NCBI RefSeq assembly: GCF_003991135.1
Contig: NZ_CP016379.1
Span: forward strand, 2,852,001 to 2,916,000
Length of the DNA stretch: 64,000 nt
Source of the DNA: Anoxybacter fermentans
GTDB taxonomy: Bacteria; Bacillota; Halanaerobiia; DY22613
Reading direction: 5' to 3'
Position numbers and translations under genes: made by a program. Each line of letters starts with the position of its first letter. Positions within the stretch are counted from its first letter, which is position 1. A model generated the notes under the pieces. That model saw only the letters and a program-made list of their open reading frames with translations, did not search any database and had not been told where the DNA came from. This document shows, one piece after another, positions 1,100 through 64,000 of the stretch.

Positions 1100-1143
1100 T
1101 GTATTAATTACCTCCTGAGAAATATTATTTACTAAAACATTAT

Positions 1144-1297
1144 ATGATTTCACTGCAAAAAGCTAATTTTTCGCTTCAAGAGAAATTTTTCGTTTAATCA
1201 TCTTAGTGAGATTTAAAAGAATGTCCTCATTACAGGATTTAGATGGTTCGAAAAATTTCTTTTGAAACGAAAAATTTGCTTTTTACAGTAAAATCAT
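1144..1297. repeat. Dispersed palindromic element, copy 1 (internally deleted)
   Basis: The inverted ends ATGATTTCACTGCAAAAAGC and, on the other strand, ATGATTTTACTGTAAAAAGC match the termini of the other copies. The arms AGAAATTTTTCG and ATCATCTTAGTGAGAT are recognisable. The second apical hairpin seen in full copies is missing, leaving about 154 bp. The element begins directly after the stop codon of the brxL-like gene, with no spacer, and lies just upstream of the EamA gene. Short TTAT sequences on both sides could be a target duplication. Confidence 0.85.
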
Positions 1298-3268
1298 TTA
1301 TACTGTGATAAAGTAAGGAACCTCAGCAATAACTTCACGTGGTATCTCTACAAAAATATGATCTTTTTTTAAAGGTAATAAAATTTTTATTTGTCCATTC
1401 TCCCCTTCTGCTTTTATAGCCCTAAGCTCATAATGAAAGACAGGTTTTCGATAAATGCTACTCTTTTCCGTAACCAATAACCCGGCAGAAACCGATTTAT
1501 TAGTTAACAAAGAATATATAGCAATAAAGAAAGCATTACTAATATCAGCCTCGATCTGATTTATAAGAGGAGTTACTGTAACATAAAAGTCATTTTGTTC
1601 TATTTTCTGCCTTAATCTTAAATATAACTTTCTATTTTTAATAATTATAAAGGTTTTTCTAAGATGATTTCTTATAGACTGATTTATTTCTCCATTAAAG
1701 AATAACCTACCACTACCAGGTTTATATTCAACTTTTAACTTCAATAAAGCAAAATCATGACCATCATCCAAAATCTGCCCAATATAAACAACTCCCGGCT
1801 CAGCTAATCTTCTTTTAAACCCTGTATCCAAACAAGCTTCAGGTAAAATCGGAAAATATCTTCTTTGAGATTCACGATCAATATACTCAAATGATGTTTC
1901 CTTATATTCAAAAGAACCCATCTTAATTAACTGTTCTTTAATCCGTTTTCTTCCTTCCAGGGCTATGTCAAGATATAATTTTAAATCTTCTTTAGTAAAC
2001 TGACCAGAAGGATGCAATAATTTGAGAAATCCAGAGACAGTCTTCTTAACCGCCCGCTTGTCTCGAGCATTCATTCTTTTATCAAAGATAAAATAATCAT
2101 CTATAACATCTGTAAAATCCAGTTCTCTTAATTTACTCATTGCTAAAGCCAAGTAATCACACTTTAATCCATAGTGGGTTGTAAAATCTCTTTCTTTCAG
2201 TATTTCCATTTCCCAACCTGGCAAATAAAAATGAAATCGATCAATTAAAGCCAGATCTTGCATTAATTGAGGTAATGGTTCAAATAAATGACTTTTTTGC
2301 AATAAAACTTGTATATCTTGATTAATATTCCCTAAAAAAACCATTGAGGCTTCTGCTGAAATTATTTCTTTTCCCCGACTAAATGATCCTGATTCCATGT
2401 AATCTTTTAAAATTTGAATTGCCGTTCTATCTTTAAAGTCAATATAGGCCACTTCATCAAAAGCAACAACTTCCCTTTTTCCAACTAAACCAAGTTGTCC
2501 TGTTCCCATATTGTAAAAGAGATTTGCTACTGTTGTTTTACCACCTGAAACCAAAATAGATTCACTGGACAATTGACGATATATATATGATTTTCCTGTG
2601 CCTCTGGCTCCTAGTTCTATAAAATTATAATTTTTTTCTACAAAAGGAATTAATCGAGCCAAAAACAACAGTTTTTTTCTTTTAGTGAAATTAAATGGTT
2701 CAATACCTATGCTTCTCAATAGGAGATTAAACCACAAAAAATTTGCTAACTTACTAACCTTTTCTTTAAATTCCTCAAAATCAAAAGTTGTTCTTTGAAG
2801 AGAAGTTAACTCTTTTATCTCAAATTCACTCTCTTTTGTAGCATCAGAATTGAGATACCTTATCTTTACTTCTGCCCACAAACCATTTTCCAATAGATCA
2901 GGATATTTTCTAATCAGTTCATTGGAAATCGTCACCTTTTTAGCTCCCAGGTTTATTAACTCTGCCCAATATTTATTTTGTCCTCTAATAACCGTAGCTG
3001 TTACTTTATCTATTATAGTAAGGCTTCCTTCATCACGAATCCTGGCTTGTACCTTTAAATTCTCTTTGGGATTAACCATTCTCTCCTGTAATATTTGAGT
3101 AATCCTTTCCACTTCTTCTTCATTCATTTCTCCTTTTTGATACCTGAGGATTAGATTCTCCAAAATATAAACCGGTATATTCAGCTTTTTTTTAAATTTA
3201 CTAACTAAATTCTTACTAATAAATTCTCCTGGAAATATCTCTTCAACTTTATGGTCTATTAGCGCCAT
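1298..3268 (-). CDS. BrxL-like / Lon-related AAA+ protein, orphan
   Basis: About 656 residues. The central AAA+ ATPase has a Walker A (ARGTGKS, near residue 223) and a Walker B (VVAFDEVAYI, near 270). These are followed by the family-specific segment QILKDYMESGSFSRGKEI and by SGGKTTVANLFYNMG between the two Walker motifs. This arrangement is that of the BREX protein BrxL and its Lon-related relatives (PF13337-type). The C-terminus retains a Lon-like end (ILLPLKK followed by VEIPREV) and a VSAG that could correspond to the Lon serine motif, but the GGLKEK-type segment holding the catalytic lysine is not evident, so protease activity is doubtful. No brxA, brxB, brxC, pglX or pglZ is nearby. The start is uncertain: GTG at 3283 lacks a good ribosome site, and ATG at 3268 gives MALIDHKVEEIFPG with a weak GGTG upstream. 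Confidence 0.82.
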   Translation of the reverse strand: MALIDHKVEEIFPGEFISKNLVSKFKKKLNIPVYILENLILRYQKGEMNEEEVERITQILQERMVNPKENLKVQARIRDEGSLTIIDKVTATVIRGQNKYWAELINLGAKKVTISNELIRKYPDLLENGLWAEVKIRYLNSDATKESEFEIKELTSLQRTTFDFEEFKEKVSKLANFLWFNLLLRSIGIEPFNFTKRKKLLFLARLIPFVEKNYNFIELGARGTGKSYIYRQLSSESILVSGGKTTVANLFYNMGTGQLGLVGKREVVAFDEVAYIDFKDRTAIQILKDYMESGSFSRGKEIISAEASMVFLGNINQDIQVLLQKSHLFEPLPQLMQDLALIDRFHFYLPGWEMEILKERDFTTHYGLKCDYLALAMSKLRELDFTDVIDDYFIFDKRMNARDKRAVKKTVSGFLKLLHPSGQFTKEDLKLYLDIALEGRKRIKEQLIKMGSFEYKETSFEYIDRESQRRYFPILPEACLDTGFKRRLAEPGVVYIGQILDDGHDFALLKLKVEYKPGSGRLFFNGEINQSIRNHLRKTFIIIKNRKLYLRLRQKIEQNDFYVTVTPLINQIEADISNAFFIAIYSLLTNKSVSAGLLVTEKSSIYRKPVFHYELRAIKAEGENGQIKILLPLKKDHIFVEIPREVIAEVPYFITV

Positions 3269-20310: not shown

Positions 20311-22091
20311 GGGGCTGTCCCAAAAGTAATTGATTACTTTTGGGCATGGCCCCTTTTTTCATTGTTCATTTTAAATTCATTGAAAATTTTTCTGTTAAGA
20401 AAATAAAAACCCATACCTGACATTCTATACTGTTGCCAGTTTAGCCAGGTTATGGGCTATACACAGTAAACCCCATTCAATTTTTACTTTCTCAAGGCCA
20501 CGAAGCAGAAATCTCCGGAATGACCAATTACCTTTGATCCTTCCAAAGACAGATTCCGCTTCAATTGCTCTTTGAGAACGGAGTTTCATACCTTTATCGG
20601 AACAAAGGTTTTCCTTTACCTTTTGCTTATATTCACGTAATTTAAAATTTATTCTTATTACTCGATCACCTTTGGCCCTGGTACAATTTTCTTTTAACTC
20701 ACACTCATCACAATTTTCGCATTTGTAATATCTAATTTGTTTAGTATATCCATTTTCAGTCTTAATTTCTTTTGTCTTACAGTAAATGAGTCTTCTTTGA
20801 ACAGGACAAATAAACTCGTCGTTTTCTTTATCATACGGCCAGTTTTCTACTTTAAATATATCATTTTTAAACTTCTTCTTTTGTTCTTTATGAAAAGTAT
20901 TATACTTAACATAAATATTAGTATTGGCTTTCTCTAAGTAATCATAATTTTCCTCACTACCATAACCTGAATCAGCTATCACATTTTCCGGAATCTTACC
21001 TGTAACTTCTTTTACTTTTTCTAAATGAGGTATTAAGCATCTTGAATCTGCCGGCCTTTGATGAATACTATAACCAACTACAAACTGATTCTCTGTACCT
21101 ATCTGAACATTATATGCGGGCTTCAATTGCCCATTTTTCATGTGGTCTTCTTTCATTCTCATAAAAGTTGCATCAGTATCTGTTTTAGAATAACTGTTTC
21201 GTCCATTTAAAATCTCTTCCTGCTGCTCATATTTTTTCATTCGAGGAAGACATTTATCTTTGAGCTCTTTAACTGTTTTTTTTAACTTCTTATCTTTGGA
21301 GTTCTTTTCTAGACGTTCTTCAAGTTCCTTAATTTTTTCTTCGAGTTTCTTTGAATCTATTTCTTTTCCTTCACCCATCTCCTCCAGGTCATTATCCCCA
21401 TACAATCTATTCTCTTCTTCGTTGGTTTTCTCAATCTCTTTTAAAAGTTCATTAATTTTTGCCCTAAGCCTTGCTTTGTACTTCTTTGTCGCTTTTCTCC
21501 AGACAAAGCTATATTTGTTTGCATTAGCTTCTATTTTTGTACCATCTAAAAAGTAATTCTCTAACTTTACATATCCTTCTTCTATAAGAAGTTCCAATAC
21601 TGATGCAAATACCTCATCAATAACATCTTTCATGATCTCTGATCTGAATCGGTTTATCGTCCGAAAATCAGGTTTATTGTTACCACTAAGCCACATAAAA
21701 TAAATATTTTCCCGAAGTGCCTTGGCAATTCGTCTTGATGAATATATTCTCTGAGTATAGGCATATACTATAACCTTAAGCATCATTTTCGGATGGTAGC
21801 TGCTTCTACCCCCACCTTTATATTTTTCAAGCAGGGGTTCAATATTCATCCTTTCTATAGCTGAATTTACCACCCTTACTAAATGATTTTCAGGAATAAA
21901 CACATCAAAACTCAAAGGCAACATTGTCTGATTCATATTATATTCAATAAATGTCTTTTTATTATGGTTTTTCCTCTTCATATTTATATTTTACCATAAA
22001 AAAAAGGTGTTGTCTTTATAAAAATTTCTGACAACACCTTTCTTTTAATATTTACTTTTGGGGGTTATAAAGGGACTTTTGGGACAGCCCC
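20311..22091 (-). mobile_element. IS1182-family insertion sequence, copy A (intact)
   Basis: 1781 bp with terminal inverted repeats GGGGCTGTCCCAAAAGT and, at the right end, its complement. The left end is itself a hairpin, 20311-20353: the repeat pairs with CTTTTGGGCATGGCCCC and is followed by TTTTTT, a terminator shape. Copy B at 28.2-30.0 kb is almost identical. I found no target duplication at either copy. Confidence 0.9.
20425..21981 (-). CDS. IS1182-family transposase
   Basis: 518 residues. The N-terminal DUF772-type region includes LPLSFDVFIPENHLVRVVNS, YKGGGRSSYHPKMMLKV and FRTINRFRSEI. The DDE core has the first Asp in NYFLDGTKIEANANKYSF, a helical insert rich in Lys and Glu (about residues 185-250), the second Asp in ENVIADSGYGSEENYDYL, and a C-terminal part with CENCDECELKENCTRAKG, a four-cysteine motif, before RAIEAESVFGRIKGNWSF with the catalytic Glu. 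Full length and uninterrupted, so probably active. Confidence 0.92.
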   Translation of the reverse strand: MKRKNHNKKTFIEYNMNQTMLPLSFDVFIPENHLVRVVNSAIERMNIEPLLEKYKGGGRSSYHPKMMLKVIVYAYTQRIYSSRRIAKALRENIYFMWLSGNNKPDFRTINRFRSEIMKDVIDEVFASVLELLIEEGYVKLENYFLDGTKIEANANKYSFVWRKATKKYKARLRAKINELLKEIEKTNEEENRLYGDNDLEEMGEGKEIDSKKLEEKIKELEERLEKNSKDKKLKKTVKELKDKCLPRMKKYEQQEEILNGRNSYSKTDTDATFMRMKEDHMKNGQLKPAYNVQIGTENQFVVGYSIHQRPADSRCLIPHLEKVKEVTGKIPENVIADSGYGSEENYDYLEKANTNIYVKYNTFHKEQKKKFKNDIFKVENWPYDKENDEFICPVQRRLIYCKTKEIKTENGYTKQIRYYKCENCDECELKENCTRAKGDRVIRINFKLREYKQKVKENLCSDKGMKLRSQRAIEAESVFGRIKGNWSFRRFLLRGLEKVKIEWGLLCIAHNLAKLATV

Positions 22092-22256
22092 TTTTATTGA
22101 TCAAACACAACTGACCAAAATATCTTAACCACCACCTACGACACATTCGTGTTTTCAGTGGTTTATTTTTATTAAAGCACGTGTTGATTTTCCTGTCAAG
22201 TAATAATATTTTTTCGTTTTCTGTTTTTTTATTTCTATTAAATCAAAAATTGCCCA

Positions 22257-22960: not shown

Positions 22961-23080
22961 AATCCCTCCTATTGGAGTAGTAGATAATAATTAACCAAAC
23001 CTAAACTTACTACACCTAGAACGGAGGGATTTATAAATTATTATTCGTTAACCACTATATAATATCCTCTTAAAATCCCC
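22961..23080. repeat. Second dispersed repeat, copy 1, with a hairpin
   Basis: AATCCCTCC at 22961 pairs with GGAGGGATT at 23023-23031, and an inner stem GGAGTAGTA pairs with TACTACACC with one mismatch. The 3' part, from about 22989 through ATTCGTTAACCACTATATA and ATATCCTCTTAAAATC to about 23078, is closely similar to DNA at 58893-58985. There is no coding capacity. The surrounding gap 22746-23237 shows nothing else. Confidence 0.65.
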
Positions 23081-28214: not shown

Positions 28215-29996
28215 GGGGCTGTCCCAAAAGTAATTGATTACTTTTGGGCATGGCCCCTTTTTTCATTGTTCATTTTAAATTCATTGAAAATTTTTCTGTT
28301 AAGAAAATAAAAACCCATACCTGACATTCTATACTGTTGCCAGTTTAGCCAGGTTATGGGCTATACACAGTAAACCCCATTCAATTTTTACTTTCTCAAG
28401 GCCACGAAGCAGAAATCTCCGGAATGACCAATTACCTTTGATCCTTCCAAAGACAGATTCCGCTTCAATTGCTCTTTGAGAACGGAGTTTCATACCTTTA
28501 TCGGAACAAAGGTTTTCCTTTACCTTTTGCTTATATTCACGTAATTTAAAATTTATTCTTATTACTCGATCACCTTTGGCCCTGGTACAATTTTCTTTTA
28601 ACTCACACTCATCACAATTTTCGCATTTGTAATATCTAATTTGTTTAGTATATCCATTTTCAGTCTTAATTTCTTTTGTCTTACAGTAAATGAGTCTTCT
28701 TTGAGCAGGACAAATAAACTCGTCGTTTTCTTTATCATACGGCCAGTTTTCTACTTTAAATATATCATTTTTAAACTTCTTCTTTTGTTCTTTATGAAAA
28801 GTATTATACTTAACATAAATATTAGTATTGGCTTTCTCTAAGTAATCATAATTTTCCTCACTACCATAACCTGAATCAGCTATCACATTTTCCGGAATCT
28901 TACCTGTAACTTCTTTTACTTTTTCTAAATGAGGTATTAAGCATCTTGAATCTGCCGGCCTTTGATGAATACTATAACCAACTACAAACTGATTCTCTGT
29001 ACCTATCTGAACATTATATGCGGGCTTCAATTGCCCATTTTTCATGTGGTCTTCTTTCATTCTCATAAAAGTTGCATCAGTATCTGTTTTAGAATAACTG
29101 TTTCGTCCATTTAAAATCTCTTCCTGCTGCTCATATTTTTTCATTCGAGGAAGACATTTATCTTTGAGCTCTTTAACTGTTTTTTTTTAACTTCTTATCT
29201 TTGGAGTTCTTTTCTAGACGTTCTTCAAGTTCCTTAATTTTTTCTTCGAGTTTCTTTGAATCTATTTCTTTTCCTTCACCCATCTCCTCCAGGTCATTAT
29301 CCCCATACAATCTATTCTCTTCTTCGTTGGTTTTCTCAATCTCTTTTAAAAGTTCATTAATTTTTGCCCTAAGCCTTGCTTTGTACTTCTTTGTCGCTTT
29401 TCTCCAGACAAAGCTATATTTGTTTGCATTAGCTTCTATTTTTGTACCATCTAAAAAGTAATTCTCTAACTTTACATATCCTTCTTCTATAAGAAGTTCC
29501 AATACTGATGCAAATACCTCATCAATAACATCTTTCATGATCTCTGATCTGAATCGGTTTATCGTCCGAAAATCAGGTTTATTGTTACCACTAAGCCACA
29601 TAAAATAAATATTTTCCCGAAGTGCCTTGGCAATTCGTCTTGATGAATATATTCTCTGAGTATAGGCATATACTATAACCTTAAGCATCATTTTCGGATG
29701 GTAGCTGCTTCTACCCCCACCTTTATATTTTTCAAGCAGGGGTTCAATATTCATCCTTTCTATAGCTGAATTTACCACCCTTACTAAATGATTTTCAGGA
29801 ATAAACACATCAAAACTCAAAGGCAACATTGTCTGATTCATATTATATTCAATAAATGTCTTTTTATTATGGTTTTTCCTCTTCATATTTATATTTTACC
29901 ATAAAAAAAAGGTGTTGTCTTTATAAAAATTTCTGACAACACCTTTCTTTTAATATTTACTTTTGGGGGTTATAAAGGGACTTTTGGGACAGCCCC
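28215..29996 (-). mobile_element. IS1182-family insertion sequence, copy B
   Basis: 1782 bp, one base longer than copy A, with the same terminal repeats and the same left-end hairpin (28215-28257). It is wedged between the convergent cheR and hflX genes: 11 bases after the cheR stop and 3 bases from the hflX stop. Near identity with copy A points to recent transposition. No clear target duplication. Confidence 0.9.
28329..29886 (-). pseudogene. IS1182-family transposase broken by a one-base frameshift
   Basis: Same protein as in copy A but read in two frames: 29173-29886 (N-terminal 237 residues) and 28329-29144 (C-terminal part). The cause is visible: a T-run at about 29180-29188 has nine Ts where copy A has eight. 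One further difference changes Val to Ala in a conserved ICPxQRR segment. If the extra T is real, this copy depends on copy A for transposase. Programmed slippage at the run is possible, though copy A needs none. Confidence 0.88.
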
Positions 29997-29999
29997 TGT

Positions 30000-31799
30000 T
30001 CATTTAACCATCTTCCTAATCACATATTCCTCTAACTGACCAGCCAATATGGGATCAACTTTTACCTTCATGTATATCCCCTCATTCCGATATTCTTCTT
30101 TTAATACATTTGCCGTTTTGTGAAGTTTTTCTACCCAACCACCTTGATTATATGGAAAAATAACTTCTAACTCTTTAAAGTCCCGCTCTACTTCTTTACG
30201 AATTAGATCAAGCAAATCCTCTATACCTTCACCCGTAAGAGCAGAAATGACAGCAGAAGGCCTTATCCTTTCTCTCAAATACTCAGCTTCATTAGTACTA
30301 ATTAAATCAGCTTTGTTAAAAACTGTGATAATAGGTTTTTCTAATACTTCCAAATCACCCAATACATTCCATACCGTACGCATCTGAAGTTCCCGTTCAG
30401 AATGACTGGCATCAACAATATGAAGCAAAATATCAGCACGCTGAACTTCCTCTAAAGTTGCACGAAATGCAGCTATAAGATGATGGGGAAGTTTTTGAAT
30501 AAAACCTACTGTATCACTCAAAAGAACAGCTGAGCTTCCCAAATCCAGTTTACGCATGGTAGGATCAAGAGTTGCAAATAGCTTATCTTCGGACAGAACA
30601 CCAGCATTAGTTAATTTATTTAAAAGGGTAGATTTACCAGCATTAGTATAACCAACCAGAGCAACAACGGGAAGATTTCGATTTTGCTGGTGTAATTCCC
30701 GCAATCCAGCCAACTGTTTAATCTCTTTCTCCAGGTCCTGAATTCTTTTCCGGATTCTACGGCGATCTACTTCCAATTTGGTTTCACCAGGACCACGGGT
30801 ACCGATTCCACCACCTAACCTGGACAACTTAGATCCAAGACCTGTCAATCTGGGAAGCATATATTTAAGCTGGGCCAATTCTACCTGTAATTTTCCCTCC
30901 CGGGTTCGGGCATGTTGAGCAAAAATATCCAATATCAAGCGGCTACGATCAACAATCTTTACTTCAATCAACTCTTCTAAATTGCGCTGTTGAGCCGGAG
31001 TTAACTCATCATCAAATATAATCAGATCAATTTGCTCTAAATAGGCTCTATACTTAAGCTCAACTGCCTTACCCTGCCCAATATAAAAAGCAGGATGTGG
31101 AGCATCTCTTTTTTGGATAATCATCCCCACTACTTCTGCTCCCGCCGTTAAAGTCAGTTGTTTTAATTCAGCCAGTGATTCTTCAAGAGAATATTGATCC
31201 TTATTCACTGGAAGATCAAGACCGACAAGTAAAGCTCTTTCCTTTAAACCCTCCTGAATTAGATGGGAAGATCCTTCTTTTAACTCTGCTTCAATTTCTT
31301 CAATTCGATATTCCGGGTCTAGATGGGTTAAATCACAAAGACTATAACTACCCTCGGAAACAAAACTCCTACTTAAAAAACCCTCACAAACCTCAGGGTA
31401 AAAGATCATTGCTTCATTGGTCCGTAAATCAGCTTTAAGATAAAGATCAAACCCATAACGAACAAAAATATACTTTTCTTTCAGTGTGAGATTATAAATT
31501 TCAAGATCAACACCAAAAATGAGCCACCGCAAACCGGAAAGGCTTTGTGCATTATTAAAAGTAATTTCTTCCCACTCTCTTAAAATTGTTTCATCCATCT
31601 CACCTGGAAATACACCTAAAATCTGACCTCTGCGATTAGTTATCAGATGAAGATTAATATCATTTTTGAAAACAAAATCTTTAACTTTTTCAAGTTTTTT
31701 AGAAGAGATCAACTCTGTATGAATATCAGACCATTGAATCATTTCTTCTAATTTTTCATATATTTTTCTACTCACCTTTAATTTATCTAAAGGAAACAT
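30000..31799 (-). CDS. hflX: Ribosome-associated GTPase HflX (long form)
   Basis: 599 residues. About 190 residues precede the HflX core; this extension has mixed alpha/beta character and no motif I can name. The glycine-rich HflX signature [20 protein letters not shown] follows, then the coiled-coil linker and the GTPase domain: G1 [15 protein letters not shown]3 [14 protein letters not shown]4 FNKADLI. HflX splits stalled or hibernating ribosomes under stress. The ATG follows AGGAGG. The gene is convergent with cheR across IS1182 copy B, and its leader holds a copy of the dispersed palindrome. Confidence 0.95.
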
Positions 31800-31840
31800 A
31801 TAATTCCTCCTCCATTTAAGAACAAAATGCCCTTCGGGTA

Positions 31841-32046
31841 CTACACAAAGCTAATTTTTGCTTCACAGTGAAATTTTTCAAACCATCTAAAGTTAGATCT
31901 CAGTCGAAATAAGGCACACTAATCAACGGGCCCTCCTGGCCCCTGATTAGCTCATCACATCCTATGATGAAGCCTTATTTCTCCTTCGATCCCACTAAGA
32001 TGGTTTAACAAAAAATTTCAATAACGCTCAAAATTAGCTTTATGCA
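31841..32046. repeat. Dispersed palindromic element, copy 2 (hflX leader)
   Basis: About 206 bp, reversed relative to copies 3 and 6. On the minus strand it reads GAAATAAGGC, a hairpin with loop TAGGATG, a second hairpin GGGCC-AGGAG-GGCCC, and GCCTTATTTC, inside diverged outer arms. It lies between the rex terminator and hflX, about 40 bases upstream of the hflX start, in the sense that puts AGGA loops on the hflX transcript strand. Confidence 0.85.
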
Positions 32047-32103
32047 ATTTAATTCAAATTGTTATCCACAACCTACGAAAAAGTATAAATTCCTAAACAT
32101 CAA

Positions 32104-32138
32104 AGAAAATCCCCCTACCAAAAGGTCAGGGGGATTTT
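32104..32138 (-). terminator. rex terminator
   Basis: On the minus strand AATCCCCCTGACC pairs with GGTAGGGGGATT across TTTT and is followed by TTC. It begins a few bases after the rex stop codon. Strong GC stem. Confidence 0.88.
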
Positions 32139-34095: not shown

Positions 34096-34215
34096 CTGAC
34101 TACCTCCGTTTTTTGTTTCGTTCCAATCATAATCAGCATTAAATAATTTACCATTAATTATGCAAGAGATGCCCTTTCCAAAATTGTTCTTTAAATTCGG
34201 GTTATTTTCTTACAT

Positions 34216-34440
34216 ATGATTATACTGCAAAAAGCTAATTTTGAGCGACATAGAAATTTTTCGCTAAACCATCTTAGCGAGATTTCCGACGAAATAAGGC
34301 CTCATCACAGGAGGTGATGAACTAATCAAGGGCCAAGAGGGCCCTTTAATTAGGAAGCCTTATTTCGGCGGAAATCGAACTTTAGATGGTTTAAAAAATT
34401 TCTTTTGAAACGAAAAATTAGCTTTTCGCAATATAATCAT
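34216..34440. repeat. Dispersed palindromic element, copy 3 (full length)
   Basis: 225 bp with inverted ends ATGATTATACTGCAAAAAGC and ATGATTATATTGCGAAAAGC. The core reads GAAATAAGGC, hairpin CTCATCAC-AGGAG-GTGATGAA, hairpin AAGGGCC-AAGAG-GGCCCTT, then GCCTTATTTC. It is intergenic, upstream of the CPBP gene and antisense to it. Confidence 0.93.
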
Positions 34441-34564
34441 ATATAGTATAACATATTTCACCTTTAAATTCAATAATATCAATATTTTTTGGTAATACAT
34501 ATAGTATCAAAAAAGTAAGAACAAAATACCTATCTAGTACTTTACCGTATTCATTAATCTTATT

Positions 34565-34607
34565 TCACTACAAAAAGCTAATTTTGAGTGACATCAAATT
34601 TTTTCGC
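34565..34607. repeat. Remnant of one arm of the palindromic element
   Basis: CACTACAAAAAGCTAATTTT followed by GAGTGACAT and TTTTTTCGCC matches the left terminal arm of the full copies. The apical hairpins and right arm are absent. Confidence 0.7.
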
Positions 34608-39477: not shown

Positions 39478-39618
39478 AACTATACCCCCCTTATATCTAT
39501 AGTCCTTGTCTAGAATCATTTTTCTGGGACTTTTGTCCTAATTAAGCTATTCTACATCTCGCTCCATTTTCCTGTTTTTATCATTAAATTTTTCTTTTGA
39601 AACAAGTTAAAAAAATCT

Positions 39619-39845
39619 TTGGTTAAACTGCAAAAAGCTAATTTTTCGCTCCTTGAGAAATTTTTCGAACCATCTAAAGCTCACCTTCCACCGAAATAAA
39701 GCTTCCTAATCAAAGGGCTCTCCTGGCCCTTAGAACTAGCTCATCACCTCCTATGATGAGGCCTTATTTCGTCGGAAATTTCGCTAAGATGATTTAGCGA
39801 AAAATTTCTATGTCGCTCAAAATTAGCTTTTTGCAGTAATAAATA
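39619..39845. repeat. Dispersed palindromic element, copy 4 (full length)
   Basis: About 227 bp, reversed relative to copies 3 and 6. The minus strand shows GACGAAATAAGGC, hairpin CTCATCAT-AGGAG-GTGATGAG, a second hairpin with AAGGGC and GCCCTT around CAGGAGA, and the closing arm. On the plus strand the first loop reads CTCCT within ATCACCTCCT, the sequence of the 16S rRNA 3' tail. Confidence 0.92.
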
Positions 39846-49901: not shown

Positions 49902-49945
49902 TATTCCCCTCCTATTCATAATTTGAAAAATTTAAAATGGTTATA

Positions 49946-50044
49946 CCTCCTCATATGAGGCCTTATTTCGACTTCAATCTCACCAAGATGGTTTAACGAA
50001 AAATTTCTATGTCGCTCAAAATTAGTTTTTTGCAGTATTATCTA
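49946..50044. repeat. Half-copy of the palindromic element in the pur leader (copy 5)
   Basis: The minus strand reads TACTGCAAAAAACTAATTTT, GAGCGACATAGAAATTTTTCG, ACCATCTTGGTGAGATT and GAAATAAGGCCTCATATGAGG, then AGGTATAACC where the match to full copies ends. So the outer left arm and part of the first hairpin remain; the second hairpin and right arm are lost. It lies between the PurBox pair and the purB ribosome site, inside the probable 5' leader. Confidence 0.88.
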
Positions 50045-56607: not shown

Positions 56608-56616
56608 AAACATTTT

Positions 56617-56841
56617 ATGATTTTCCTACAAAAAAGCTAATTTTGAGCGACATAGAAATTTTTCGCTAAATCATCTTAGCGAGATTTTCGACGAAATAAG
56701 GCCTCATCACAGGAGGTGATGAGCTAATCAAGGGCCAGGAGGGCCCTTTGATTAGGAAGCCTTATTTCGACGGAAATCGAGCTTTAGATGATTCGAAAAA
56801 TTTCTCAAGAAGCGAAAAATTAGCTTTTGGCAGTATAATCT
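56617..56841. repeat. Dispersed palindromic element, copy 6 (full length, reference)
   Basis: 225 bp, the best-formed copy. The closing stem GAAATAAGGC / GCCTTATTTC encloses hairpin 1, CTCATCAC-AGGAG-GTGATGAG, and hairpin 2, AAGGGCC-AGGAG-GGCCCTT, extended by CTAATC / GATTAG. The outer arms pair for most of their length. Both loops are AGGAG. It lies between the convergent nrdJ and ubiB-like genes. Confidence 0.95.
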
Positions 56842-56869
56842 TTAATAAGTTTCTTCCAGTTTGATATAT

Positions 56870-58892: not shown

Positions 58893-58985
58893 GTCAAACC
58901 AAAACTTATTATATTCAAACTGGAAAGATTTATAAGTTATAATTCGCCAACCACTACATAATATCCTCTTAAAATCTTAATCAAA
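58893..58985. repeat. Second dispersed repeat, copy 2
   Basis: Similar over about 90 bases to 22989-23080: AAACC.AAACTTA, GATTTATAA.TTAT, ATTCG..AACCACTA.ATAATA and TCCTCTTAAAATC are shared in order. The 5' hairpin arm of copy 1 (AATCCCTCC) is not found here. Upstream of the phasin-like gene, no coding capacity. Confidence 0.65.
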
Positions 58986-59165
58986 TTTACTTTTTTCAGT
59001 TCTTTCTTAAATATTATCAAACATTACTTAATATTATTAAACATTACTTATTAAATATATAAAAAATCGGCAATTAATTGAACTTCTCTGCTACAGAAAA
59101 ATATCGGCAGCTCTAATCTCCTACTTAAAAACTCACTTTGTGATAATATCCTACCAACAAAATGA

Positions 59166-59385
59166 ATGATTAAACTACAAAAAACTAATTTTGAGCGCCA
59201 TAGAAATTTTCGCTAAACCATCTTAGTGAGATTAAAAAGAATGGCCTCATATGAGGATGTGATGAACTAATCATGGGTCATAAGGACCCATTGATTAGTG
59301 TGCCTTATTTCGACTGAAATTGAACTTTATATAGCTCGAAAAATTTCTTTTGAAGCGAAAAATTTGCTTTTTACAGTAAAATCAT
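59166..59385. repeat. Dispersed palindromic element, copy 7 (full length, diverged)
   Basis: 220 bp with ends ATGATTAAACTAC and ATGATTTTACTGT. Hairpin 1 reads TCATA-TGAGGATG-TGATGA. Hairpin 2 reads ATGGGTC-ATAAG-GACCCAT, which differs from copy 6 at two base pairs, both compensated. The gaps on either side (58986-59165 and 59386-59672) hold nothing else recognisable. Confidence 0.92.
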
Positions 59386-59672
59386 TTAATTGCTTATCCT
59401 TAATCAGAAAAACAATTCTGGTTCCTATTCATCATAATCATATAAACGGCAACATAGTATGAAAGTTCCCACTCAACTATAGGATAGCATTTCCCATTTT
59501 ACACTCATCGTATCACTTTATTCAGAATTTTTATACACTAACATATCAGCTTAAAATCTCACCCAACATTTTAAGCGAATCTGAAAAACCTACAAAGCCA
59601 GATATACTCTGTTATACACTAAACAGATCAGCCATCTAATCTTTGTTATACGTCTGGATAAAACTTTATTAA

Positions 59673-60644
59673 TCACGACTTTAAATTATATGTATTGTAA
59701 AAATCTCTTACTATTGGTACGATACTTTCTATAAAATCAAATAGACTCCTACTGACCATCTCAATAAAATCTGGGTGATTCCAATTCATCAAATCCCTAA
59801 CATAAACCCTTGAAAATCCTTTCCATGCTTGACATGTAATTTCTAATCTATTATCTAGTTTATTTTTTTGTCGGGCTTTAAATAAAGGCAAGTCAAATAT
59901 TTCTTCAATAATCTCTTTACGTTCAATAATAAACTCTTCAAAATGTTTTTTCTTATCAGTACTACCAGTATTAAAAGAAAAATCAGGAACAAACATTAAG
60001 TGAATTTCTTCTCTTTTTCGTGCTCGATTATATACAACAAGTCGGTCAGAAGGGAATTCTGAAGATTTTAATAACAACCTGTACTCGTCTTTTTTTCTAA
60101 TATCTAGATCCTCTACTTCAAACCCCATGGTTAACTCCATATTTTCTTCTACAATTTGTTTTAAAGTATTCATGAAGAATTTAACAATTTCTTTTTCTTC
60201 ATTTGAATATAAAGAGTGTGTTAACTCCATTGTCTTAATATTTACATTTTTAATTAGGTTAGATTTTCTCTGATACAGCTTTGGATTATTTCTTTCTTTA
60301 TTTAATAACTTTTCTACTTCCATTAAATTTATTTTTCTTGTTTCAAATCCTAAAACTTTAAGTACTTTTTCTGTCTCATCATCAAACTCAAATGCTACAA
60401 CCATATATCTCCCTGATTCCTTTAAAAAAGTTTTATATTTTGCTATCTGATAAACAACATTTTTACCAGCATTGAGCTTTAGTTCAATAAATACTGTCTT
60501 ATCATTCTTATCTTTACATTTAAGGTCACAACGGTAAGTTGTTCTATCAGCTTTAATTGGATATTCCTCTTGTTCAACTTTTAAGCCATCTTCAATAATT
60601 TCTGGATGTAAGCAGACAATGCGTTTTAAATCTTCTTCTAACAA
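59673..60644 (-). CDS. PD-(D/E)XK endonuclease, NucS/EndoMS-like N-terminus, unknown C-terminus
   Basis: About 323 residues. The N-terminal domain has LEEDLKRIVCLHPEIIEDGL and the nuclease core: Asp in TYRCDLKCKD, E-x-K in TVFIELKLNAGKN, and Gln in VVYQIAKYKTFL, a complete PD-(D/E)XK set like that of NucS/DUF91 nucleases. Residues after about 130 are a distinct region with VEDLDIRKKDEYRLLLKS and VYVRDLMNWNHPDFIEMV that I do not recognise. A TTG at 60644, eight bases after GGGAGG, is the best start; a GTG at 60653 overlaps that site. It comes five bases after the MFS stop, so it is translationally linked to that transporter. Confidence 0.72.
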   Translation of the reverse strand: MLEEDLKRIVCLHPEIIEDGLKVEQEEYPIKADRTTYRCDLKCKDKNDKTVFIELKLNAGKNVVYQIAKYKTFLKESGRYMVVAFEFDDETEKVLKVLGFETRKINLMEVEKLLNKERNNPKLYQRKSNLIKNVNIKTMELTHSLYSNEEKEIVKFFMNTLKQIVEENMELTMGFEVEDLDIRKKDEYRLLLKSSEFPSDRLVVYNRARKREEIHLMFVPDFSFNTGSTDKKKHFEEFIIERKEIIEEIFDLPLFKARQKNKLDNRLEITCQAWKGFSRVYVRDLMNWNHPDFIEMVSRSLFDFIESIVPIVRDFYNTYNLKS

Positions 60645-60649
60645 TAGAA

Positions 60650-61876
60650 TCACCTCCCGATATTTTTTCCAGCCAACAAAACCATCTTTTTAACCATAAA
60701 AAACACTAATACTGAAATCACCTCTATTATAACTACAAATAAAATCAAATATTTAACAGAAAAATCATACAACAGGCCCATAAGCACACTCCCGATAAAC
60801 CAGGACGCTCCATATGCAGTATTAAAGATACCATATGCAAACCCTCTATGCTCAATAGGTGTCAAGTCAGCAATGGAAGCACGCATAATCGTTTCATGAA
60901 TCCCCATCACTGCACCCCAGAGTATAACACTCATCACAGCAAGAATATAACTACGCGAAAATGCAATAAAAGGAATAGGAAGAGTTAATAAAGGGATCAT
61001 TATCAATATTCTCAGCCCGATTTTGTCATATGTTTTTCCAATAATAAGAGCTACCAACGCATCCACACCCATTGCAATTGCATAAAATATGGGAATCTGA
61101 ATATCTGAAAAAACCGATTGGACTTTGAGATGAAAGGAAATTAACTGAAAGCTAGCAAATCCCATTACACTCAAGGAGGTAAATAAAACATAGAACCAGA
61201 AAACTGTAGGTAGCTTACCCTTGCCCTTGAGATTTTGTCTGGTTATTATGCCAGAAGTTTCAAGTTTCTCAGGTGCTGGCACTTTAATCCTTGCTATAAT
61301 AAGTATAGCTAAAGTCAAAAGAGCAGGTATCCATAAAATAGTAAACCCTTCACGATAACCACCTTTCAAAAGAAATACAGTAGAAAAGATTAAAGGCCCA
61401 ATAATAGCACCAACCTGGTCTAATGCTTCATGGATACCAAATCCCCAACCCCTACCTACTTGTTTTGTAGCATGTGAAAGTATCGCATCTCTCGCTGGAG
61501 TTCTAATTGCTTTCCCCATTCGTTCTAAAATAATCAGAACAGCTGCAAGTTGCCAATAACCAGCAAATGCCAATAGAGGAATACTGAAAATTAATCCATA
61601 ACCAATAATTGTCATAACCCAATATTTCCCTGTACGATCTGCCAGATAACCTGAGATTAAACGCAAGGCATATCCGATAAATTCACCTAAACCTGCCACC
61701 AGCCCAACAATGCTGGCACTGGCTCCTAAAACAGCCAGATACGGGCCAGCAATACTTCTTGCCCCTTCGTATGTGATATCACCAAACAAACTGACAATTC
61801 CCAAAAGGAAAATAAATTGCAAGGCTTTCTTTTTTTGATCTTCTCCCTTGCAGTCTAAATTTTGTTGAAATTTCAT
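60650..61876 (-). CDS. MFS transporter (DITYEGARS subgroup)
   Basis: 408 residues and twelve helices. The distinctive start of the transmembrane region is LFGDITYEGARSIAGPYLAV, known from a subgroup of MFS permeases in bacteria and archaea. The loop motif is ISGYLADRTGKYWVM, and the helix-4 loop is ERMGKAIRTPARDAILSHAT. Substrate unknown. The ATG follows GGAGGG. Next on the same strand after five bases is the nuclease-like gene. Confidence 0.88.
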   Translation of the reverse strand: MKFQQNLDCKGEDQKKKALQFIFLLGIVSLFGDITYEGARSIAGPYLAVLGASASIVGLVAGLGEFIGYALRLISGYLADRTGKYWVMTIIGYGLIFSIPLLAFAGYWQLAAVLIILERMGKAIRTPARDAILSHATKQVGRGWGFGIHEALDQVGAIIGPLIFSTVFLLKGGYREGFTILWIPALLTLAILIIARIKVPAPEKLETSGIITRQNLKGKGKLPTVFWFYVLFTSLSVMGFASFQLISFHLKVQSVFSDIQIPIFYAIAMGVDALVALIIGKTYDKIGLRILIMIPLLTLPIPFIAFSRSYILAVMSVILWGAVMGIHETIMRASIADLTPIEHRGFAYGIFNTAYGASWFIGSVLMGLLYDFSVKYLILFVVIIEVISVLVFFMVKKMVLLAGKNIGR

Positions 61877-63733: not shown

Positions 63734-63782
63734 CTTAGTGAGATTGAAAAAAATGGTCTTATTACAGGATGTGATGAGCTAC
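63734..63782. repeat. Remnant of the palindromic element (copy 8)
   Basis: CTTAGTGAGATTGAAAAAAA, TGGTCTTATTACAGGATG and TGATGAGCTA follow the order of the left arm and first hairpin in copies 1 and 7. The rest is missing or merged into the end of the neighbouring phosphodiesterase gene. Confidence 0.7.
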
Positions 63783-63784
63783 TT

Positions 63785-64000
63785 CTAAGAGGCAGGATGG
63801 TTTATCAGTTCATCCCTTATACTTCGTGCTAGCGCAGGATAATTTGTAATTATACCATCTACTTGCCATTCAATCATCTGTTTTATCTCAGCTTTGTTAT
63901 TTACCGTCCAGGTAAATACCTGATACCCCATTTGATGACATTGCTCTATCAATTCCCTATCAACAAAAAATCGATTGGGATTTAAAGACCTGGCTTGAAA
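63785..64000 (-). CDS. Glycerophosphodiester phosphodiesterase, C-terminal end (partial)
   Basis: The last 71 residues of a GDPD-family protein, entering from the right edge and ending at TAG 63785-63787. The segment YQVFTWTVNNKAEIKQMIEW followed by QVDGIITNYPALARSIRDEL is the well-known end of the TIM-barrel domain (W-T-V-N, then D-G-I-I-T-N-Y-P). It releases glycerol 3-phosphate from glycerophosphodiesters. The final residues lie beside a remnant of the palindromic element, which may have supplied the last few codons. Confidence 0.9.
   Translation of the reverse strand, partial: FQARSLNPNRFFVDRELIEQCHQMGYQVFTWTVNNKAEIKQMIEWQVDGIITNYPALARSIRDELINHPAS

Follow-up and report, generated by a model that had tools for sequence, protein, structure and literature searches.

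The genome of Anoxybacter fermentans carries a palindromic repeat, several copies of which lie in the stretch of 64,000 nucleotides analyzed here (hereafter, the window). An earlier note on this DNA compared one hairpin (hairpin 2) between two of these copies, AAGGGCC-AGGAG-GGCCCTT in copy 6 and ATGGGTC-ATAAG-GACCCAT in copy 7, letters that are correct as read in the sequence. Two pairs were said to have changed on both sides (A-T to T-A and C-G to T-A), and it was proposed that a folded form, as RNA or as a DNA hairpin or cruciform, is what is kept, with a covariation test over many copies named as the arbiter. The locus therefore raises the question of whether the fold of this element is conserved, in which form, and on what level selection acts.

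Anatomy of the element

The element is about 216 bp long, has inverted ends, and consists of two arms of ~80 nt and a Y-shaped apex of two hairpins with AGGA-type loops ~26 nt apart. A consensus derived from 83 of 101 full-length matches (at least 203 nt, score >140) folds as a single long hairpin, which has 94 pairs and ends in a three-way apex. In this consensus, hairpin 2 reads CTAATCAAGGGYC-AGGAN-GRCCC[A/T]TTGATTAG; hairpin 1 and the features of the window are given in Table 1. Two large subfamilies, A and B, are present in the genome. Copy 7 was matched by the profile at 59163-59386 (nhmmer), and its ends, GATT..AATC, coincide with the boundary at which other copies have 6-7-bp flanking direct repeats. 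Its fold was better than those of 200 of 200 dinucleotide shuffles, with z -4.7 as RNA and z -4.2 as DNA.

Table 1. Copies of the element in the window and parts of copy 7
Feature	Position	Strand	Sequence or remark	Basis
Copy 7	59168..59383	+	from GATTAAACTAC to ..ACAGTAAAATC	read from letters
Left arm, outer palindrome of copy 7	59168..59245	+		83-copy consensus fold
GA of GA/GA tandem-mismatch internal loop, left side	59228..59229	+	partner 59322-59323	
Hairpin 1 of copy 7	59246..59266	+	degenerate: CTCATATGAGGATGTGATGAA; consensus CTCATCAC-AGGAN-GTGATGAG	
Hairpin 2 of copy 7	59267..59298	+	CTAATCATGGGTC-ATAAG-GACCCATTGATTAG	covaries in relatives
Right arm, outer palindrome of copy 7	59302..59383	+		sequence and consensus fold
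GA of GA/GA internal loop, right side	59322..59323	+		mismatch count over copies
Copy 6	56614..56843	+	subfamily B; copy compared with copy 7	profile match
Full-length copy	34214..34442	+	left arm subfamily B-like	profile match
Full-length copy	31838..32054	-	another repeat on its flanks	profile match
Full-length copy	39618..39840	-		profile match
Short copy	1142..1298	+	apex deleted	profile match
Truncated copy	49945..50043	-		profile match
Fragment	63734..63804	+	inner part without ends	profile match
Solo end	34562..34607	+		profile match

An Rfam scan of the window gave no matches, and for the element itself the best Rfam matches were far below the gathering score, with none at gathering; the element is a new candidate Rfam family. 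A CTGATGAG-like string by hairpin 1 was considered as a hammerhead ribozyme, but this reading was dropped because the bases in question are paired and, by eye, vary in relatives.

Several other features were seen near copies of the element. An ORF with a NucS C-terminal endonuclease domain (59673-60653 of the window) adjoins copy 7. At 31780-32120 of the window, and at L066_2909, L052_708 and L041_17767, copies are nested in another repeat, with a left flank like TTTAGGAAATTATACTTTTTCRTAGGTT and a right flank CCCGAAGGGCATTTTGTTCTT. A separate 82-nt repeat (22996-23077 and 58895-58976, 80% identical) occurs near gene starts or in intergenic positions and is unrelated to the element.

Copy number, ends and target duplications

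The ends of the element had 1122 matches with at most two mismatches in the genome of 3,557,532 bases (control pattern, 0), and hence about 560 copies are present when counted by ends. In an unbiased sample, which comprised the window and 40 evenly spaced 20-kb stretches (864 kb), a profile search located the element in 164 places; the copy was full length at 101 of these and partial or short at the other 63. Ends were readable in 92 of the 101 full-length copies, and there target duplications at one fixed boundary, GATT..AATC, were seen as exact 6-mers in 18 copies and as 7-mers in six; not every copy had such a duplication. Because of its copy number and target duplications, we identify the element as a mobile repeat: it is a palindrome resembling miniature inverted-repeat transposable elements (MITEs).

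With our own simple gene caller, none of the 101 full copies was inside a called ORF, and 71 of the 87 copies with both neighbours called sat between tandem genes, with no orientation bias relative to them (38 same, 33 opposite). Copies were nearer to the 3' than to the 5' ends of genes, with distances of <60 bp in 35 of 91 and 11 of 83 cases, respectively.

An autonomous partner with the same ends was not found at 13 stretches of genome G002, 12 odd ends of G000 and 30 end loci of G147. Two insertion sequence copies in the window (20311-22095 and 28215-30000) are 99.8% identical and carry DDE_Tnp_1_6 and DUF772, the second with its transposase split into two ORFs; they were considered for this role and ruled out by their GGGGCTGTCCCAAAAGT-type ends. 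Plasmid and phage collections searched with copy 6 gave no match. Literature searches on MITEs in Halanaerobi and on hairpin repetitive elements in Halanaerobiales returned no account of the element; PMC7812874, the available part of which deals with 5S rRNA inserts, was set aside as not relevant.

Two arrangements in other stretches deserve mention. At 1963184-1981608 of G000 (L042:1184-19608; model matches from 1943479), at least eight near-identical copies of the element follow one another at ~2.1 kb spacing. The ORFs that alternate with these copies are presumably similar to Rhs/YD-repeat C-terminal cassettes (YGARYYD..), and one transposase-like ORF among them we take to be ISL3-like. In G002, two short derivatives of ~110 bp (L277 and L279) have the same internal deletion at AAATTT and each its own flanking duplication; this short form looks as if it were mobile itself.

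Paired changes among copies of one genome

The two paired changes in hairpin 2 fared differently when they were counted over 149 full copies (of 249 places), a set that is not unbiased and includes 30 copies picked because they resemble copy 7, 60 picked for their exact ends, and five that came from a DNA search of relatives. At the C/G site, C-G was found in 103 copies, T-A in 25, C·A in nine, T·G in four and other states in eight; this is a real double change, mostly a subfamily state. At the A/T site, A·T was found in 81 copies, A·A in 51, A·G in six, T·A in four and others in seven. A single step separates T·A from the mismatch A·A, which is common, and the site is therefore not a clean double change.

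Covariation within this genome was analyzed by an R-scape-like test (G statistic with APC) of the 83 copies of at least 203 nt from the unbiased sample, with a null in which the substitutions of each branch were reassigned to other columns on a FastTree tree. Among all column pairs over the 83 copies, none was significant, and on this genome's copies the claim of the earlier note would thus fail its own test. When only pairs of the structure were considered, one of 94 exceeded the phylogenetic expectation; the best were 74-157 (E 0.022), 56-176 (0.16) and 65-166 (0.30), and the C/G site discussed above, pair 120-128, had an E of 0.91 among the 94.

For subfamilies A and B, with 53 copies each and the 43 copies that belong to neither set aside, double changes numbered 25 versus 10.5 expected and 11 versus 6.2 expected, respectively, and non-Watson-Crick cells numbered 374 and 310. 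Inserted copies in this genome mostly decay, losing pairs, with a modest excess of double changes; because of this excess, decay is not the whole story within the subfamilies. Two copies, or this genome alone, are insufficient to establish conservation of the fold, and it is the relatives that carry the case.

Distribution of the element and covariation across genera

A DNA search of 41 genomes detected the element in five, its own included, at ~70-80% identity. A covariance model built from five genomes had matches in 16 of 59 genomes of the class, representing 11 of 30 genera, and in 14 of 299 genomes of a draw from the phylum, eight of which lie outside the class. The genomes G000, G003, G017 and G026 had GATT-type ends in common, with duplications of 6-7 bp (read by eye except in G000). 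The ends in G002 were CTGGACTTTCC.. with ~9-bp duplications (copies read by eye), and G147, which is outside the class, had GATTTAACTGCAAAAAG-type ends (153 matches; control, 3). Since the ends differ between genomes, the apex was kept while some termini changed.

Two alignments of the element were examined. The first contained 18 cores from five genomes, eight of which were hand-chosen from this genome, where 78 of 83 cores had been kept (at least 118 nt). RNAalifold predicted 33 pairs for it, with 17 changed on both sides, a count that is partly circular as it was made on its own alignment. With a 51-pair structure obtained from this genome alone, 84.4% of cells were paired, versus 73.6% for shuffled and 30.4-42.5% for slid controls; 22 pairs had changed on both sides, and the covariation score was 0.327, versus 0.145 shuffled and at most 0.085 slid.

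The second alignment contained 34 realigned matches from relatives (31 distinct rows). It leans towards the model structure, eight of the 34 having been in the model, and with the model's 34 pairs 92.7% of cells were paired (70.1% shuffled, 27.8-45.0% slid), 31 of the 34 pairs had changed on both sides, and the covariation score reached 0.600 (0.199 shuffled, at most 0.103 slid). RNAalifold gave 39 pairs for this alignment, 35 of them changed on both sides.

In a phylogeny-aware test of the 31 distinct rows, eight column pairs were significant, of which seven belong to the structure and one is displaced from it by a single step. Among structure pairs only, 18 of 34 had E<0.05, including most of both apical hairpins: 41-57 and 42-56 in hairpin 1, and 64-102, 67-99, 68-98, 71-93, 72-92, 73-91 and 74-90 in hairpin 2. 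When four rows without a hairpin were removed, again eight pairs were significant, seven in the structure, and 19 of the 34 structure pairs passed. Pair-state parsimony counted 100 Watson-Crick double changes, 22 single changes via G·U, 35 breaks, 11 restorations and five other events.

Distinct members were also folded singly, i.e., free of any alignment. Their z values ranged from -2.4 to -11.6 against 60 shuffles, one shuffle being as good for L133 only, and nearly all showed the two-hairpin apex. Three members (L247, L248 and L262) had an apex of a single hairpin without AGGA; L254, L138 and L140/L148 were misfolded or had lost part of the apex. Overall, these analyses show that the fold has been kept from genus to genus and also outside the class, and that compensatory changes in it are abundant. 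The proposal that a folded form is kept is thereby upheld for element lineages, as the outer stem and hairpins 1 and 2 all covary across genera.

Asymmetry between the strands

The loop of hairpin 2 contained GGA in 26 of 28 distinct rows having this hairpin. For hairpin 1 the count was 17 of 27, with CGA in the remaining ten. In the arms, a 2x2 internal loop GA/GA was conserved in 24 of 31 distinct relatives and in 114 of the 149 copies from this genome. A T/TT loop was conserved in 23 of 31 relatives and 144 of 149 copies. In a simple inverted repeat, GA/GA and T/TT would pair; these sites thus make the element asymmetric between strands. G·U cells exceeded A·C cells among relatives (32:11, or 24:11 without one pair, p 0.04) and within the subfamilies (127:75 and 121:98, cells that are not independent). 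G·U cells are nevertheless rare: the 32 found for 34 pairs in 31 rows are fewer than we would expect of an RNA.

The AGGA loops, the GA/GA mismatches and the G·U excess argue for one folded strand rather than a symmetric cruciform or homogenisation of the arms, and our conclusion is that the strand that folds is the one with AGGA, either as RNA or as single-stranded DNA. Thus, among the forms named earlier, a folded strand is supported and a symmetric double-stranded cruciform is disfavoured. RNA is favoured because of the AGGA and GA/GA loops; the few G·U pairs and the absence of orientation bias leave room for single-stranded DNA.

What keeps the fold

We consider it probable that hairpin 2 is one half of a strand-specific, Y-shaped apex in a MITE-like palindrome, whose fold is kept by selection on element lineages. 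Selection of this kind, which is the most likely one, would operate at the step where the element propagates itself and a copy produces further copies: new lineages would be founded only by copies in which the AGGA-bearing strand can still fold, and after insertion copies would decay in place. The working form would be a single strand, an RNA transcribed from the element being more likely than a displaced strand of DNA, and it may present two purine loops ~26 nt apart to a protein. Single copies decay, yet the strand-specific fold of the family persists across large evolutionary distances; selection on element lineages is thereby set apart from selection by the host.

The loops offer a lead to such a protein. 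They resemble CsrA-binding hairpins (CAGGANG), and CsrA would be the best named candidate partner. PMC7652899, in the part available, gives CAGGA(U/A/C)G in hairpin loops as the repeat of CsrB and describes CsrA as able to bridge sites separated by 10-63 nt; the available part of PMC4005645 describes A(N)GGAX loops that bind RsmE with graded affinity. The spacing of the GGA/CGA loops was 26 nt in 23 of 29 rows measured. In two tests that share six genomes, ignore kinship and are confounded by phylogeny, csrA was found in 15 of 16 holders of the element within the class versus 26 of 43 non-holders (p 0.011); in the phylum draw, 14 of 14 holders had it versus 199 of 285 other genomes (p 0.008). 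All eight holders outside the class had csrA; the draft genome G041, also a holder, had no csrA match.

It is possible, without being probable, that we are dealing with a phylum-wide transposable element family with a twin-hairpin CsrA-binding RNA core, which would exploit or sponge a global translational regulator. If so, hundreds of dispersed A(N)GGA hairpin pairs would act on CsrA. CsrA is in any event a concrete candidate partner for the family, in a group of bacteria from which we know of no RNA antagonists of CsrA.

A different matter is whether the element might be a dispersed CsrA-binding RNA, a sponge or cis-regulator, that is useful to the host. This appears unlikely. Loops that fit A(N)GGAX (PMC4005645, as far as available), a 26-nt spacing within the bridging range of CsrA (PMC7652899, likewise) and the higher frequency of csrA among holders would agree with such a function, but G041 is a holder without a csrA match, the loop of hairpin 1 is CGA rather than GGA in ten of 27 rows, and the csrA association is confounded by phylogeny and counts six genomes twice. 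Moreover, copies in this genome are decaying and unbiased in orientation, and because of this lack of bias a host-side RNA role is not supported.

We also doubt that the covariation of pairs reflects nothing but the need of a DNA transposon for two matching ends as transposase sites, with symmetric cruciform extrusion at most. Long arms, target duplications and high copy number are what such an element would have, and the arms do stay palindromic where the end sequences of genomes differ. However, hairpins 1 and 2 are internal palindromes, each of which covaries independently of the arms; the arms contain conserved GA/GA mismatches at positions that would be paired if the ends matched; and the AGGA loops are on one strand only.

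Homogenisation of the arms by template switching within hairpins, which would produce paired changes without selection, is very unlikely. Quasi-palindromic events do exist, as illustrated by hairpin 1 (CTCATCACAGG vs CCTCATATGAGG) and by apex deletions between the arms, but single copies mostly lose pairs, as the non-Watson-Crick cells of both subfamilies indicate, and template switching would erase the conserved GA/GA and T/TT mismatches and AGGA or let them drift. Finally, subfamily founder effects without structural meaning, for which the lack of significant column pairs within this genome and the concentration of double changes at subfamily-level sites might speak, are refuted for the family as a whole by cross-genus covariation beyond the tree-based null and by the 100 double changes from parsimony, and stand as a reading of the two-copy comparison.

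Comparison with known systems

Parvovirus inverted terminal repeats are Y- or T-shaped, with a long stem and two small hairpins at the tip. The likeness to our element is an analogy of shape only, as the latter is an interspersed chromosomal repeat with different ends. REP and BIME sequences are intergenic palindromes present in many copies, with a loop or stem important for mobility. REP/BIME palindromes are 20-40 bp long and bear a GTAG/CGTC tag; the element, at ~216 bp, falls outside their length range, and unlike REP/BIME sequences with their RAYT transposases it has flanking duplications.

With CsrA-binding RNAs of the CsrB/RsmZ type, as far as the portions of the two articles cited above describe them, the element shares CAGGANG or A(N)GGAX loops, short stems and a spacing suited to the CsrA dimer. 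It differs in having two GGA hairpins per unit instead of many CsrA sites, in lacking GGA in hairpin 1 in a third of distinct relatives, and in sitting within a mobile repeat, as a candidate known here from its sequence.

The closest comparison is with bacterial MITEs, which are likewise short and non-coding, have inverted ends and target duplications, and occur in hundreds of copies outside genes. To our knowledge, few of them have a demonstrated conserved secondary structure, most being described as palindromes only. The element departs from MITEs in that an autonomous partner was not found in the stretches of G002, G000 and G147 examined, and in its Y-shaped fold, which is deeply conserved, together with the loops and the GA/GA mismatches, across families and beyond the class.
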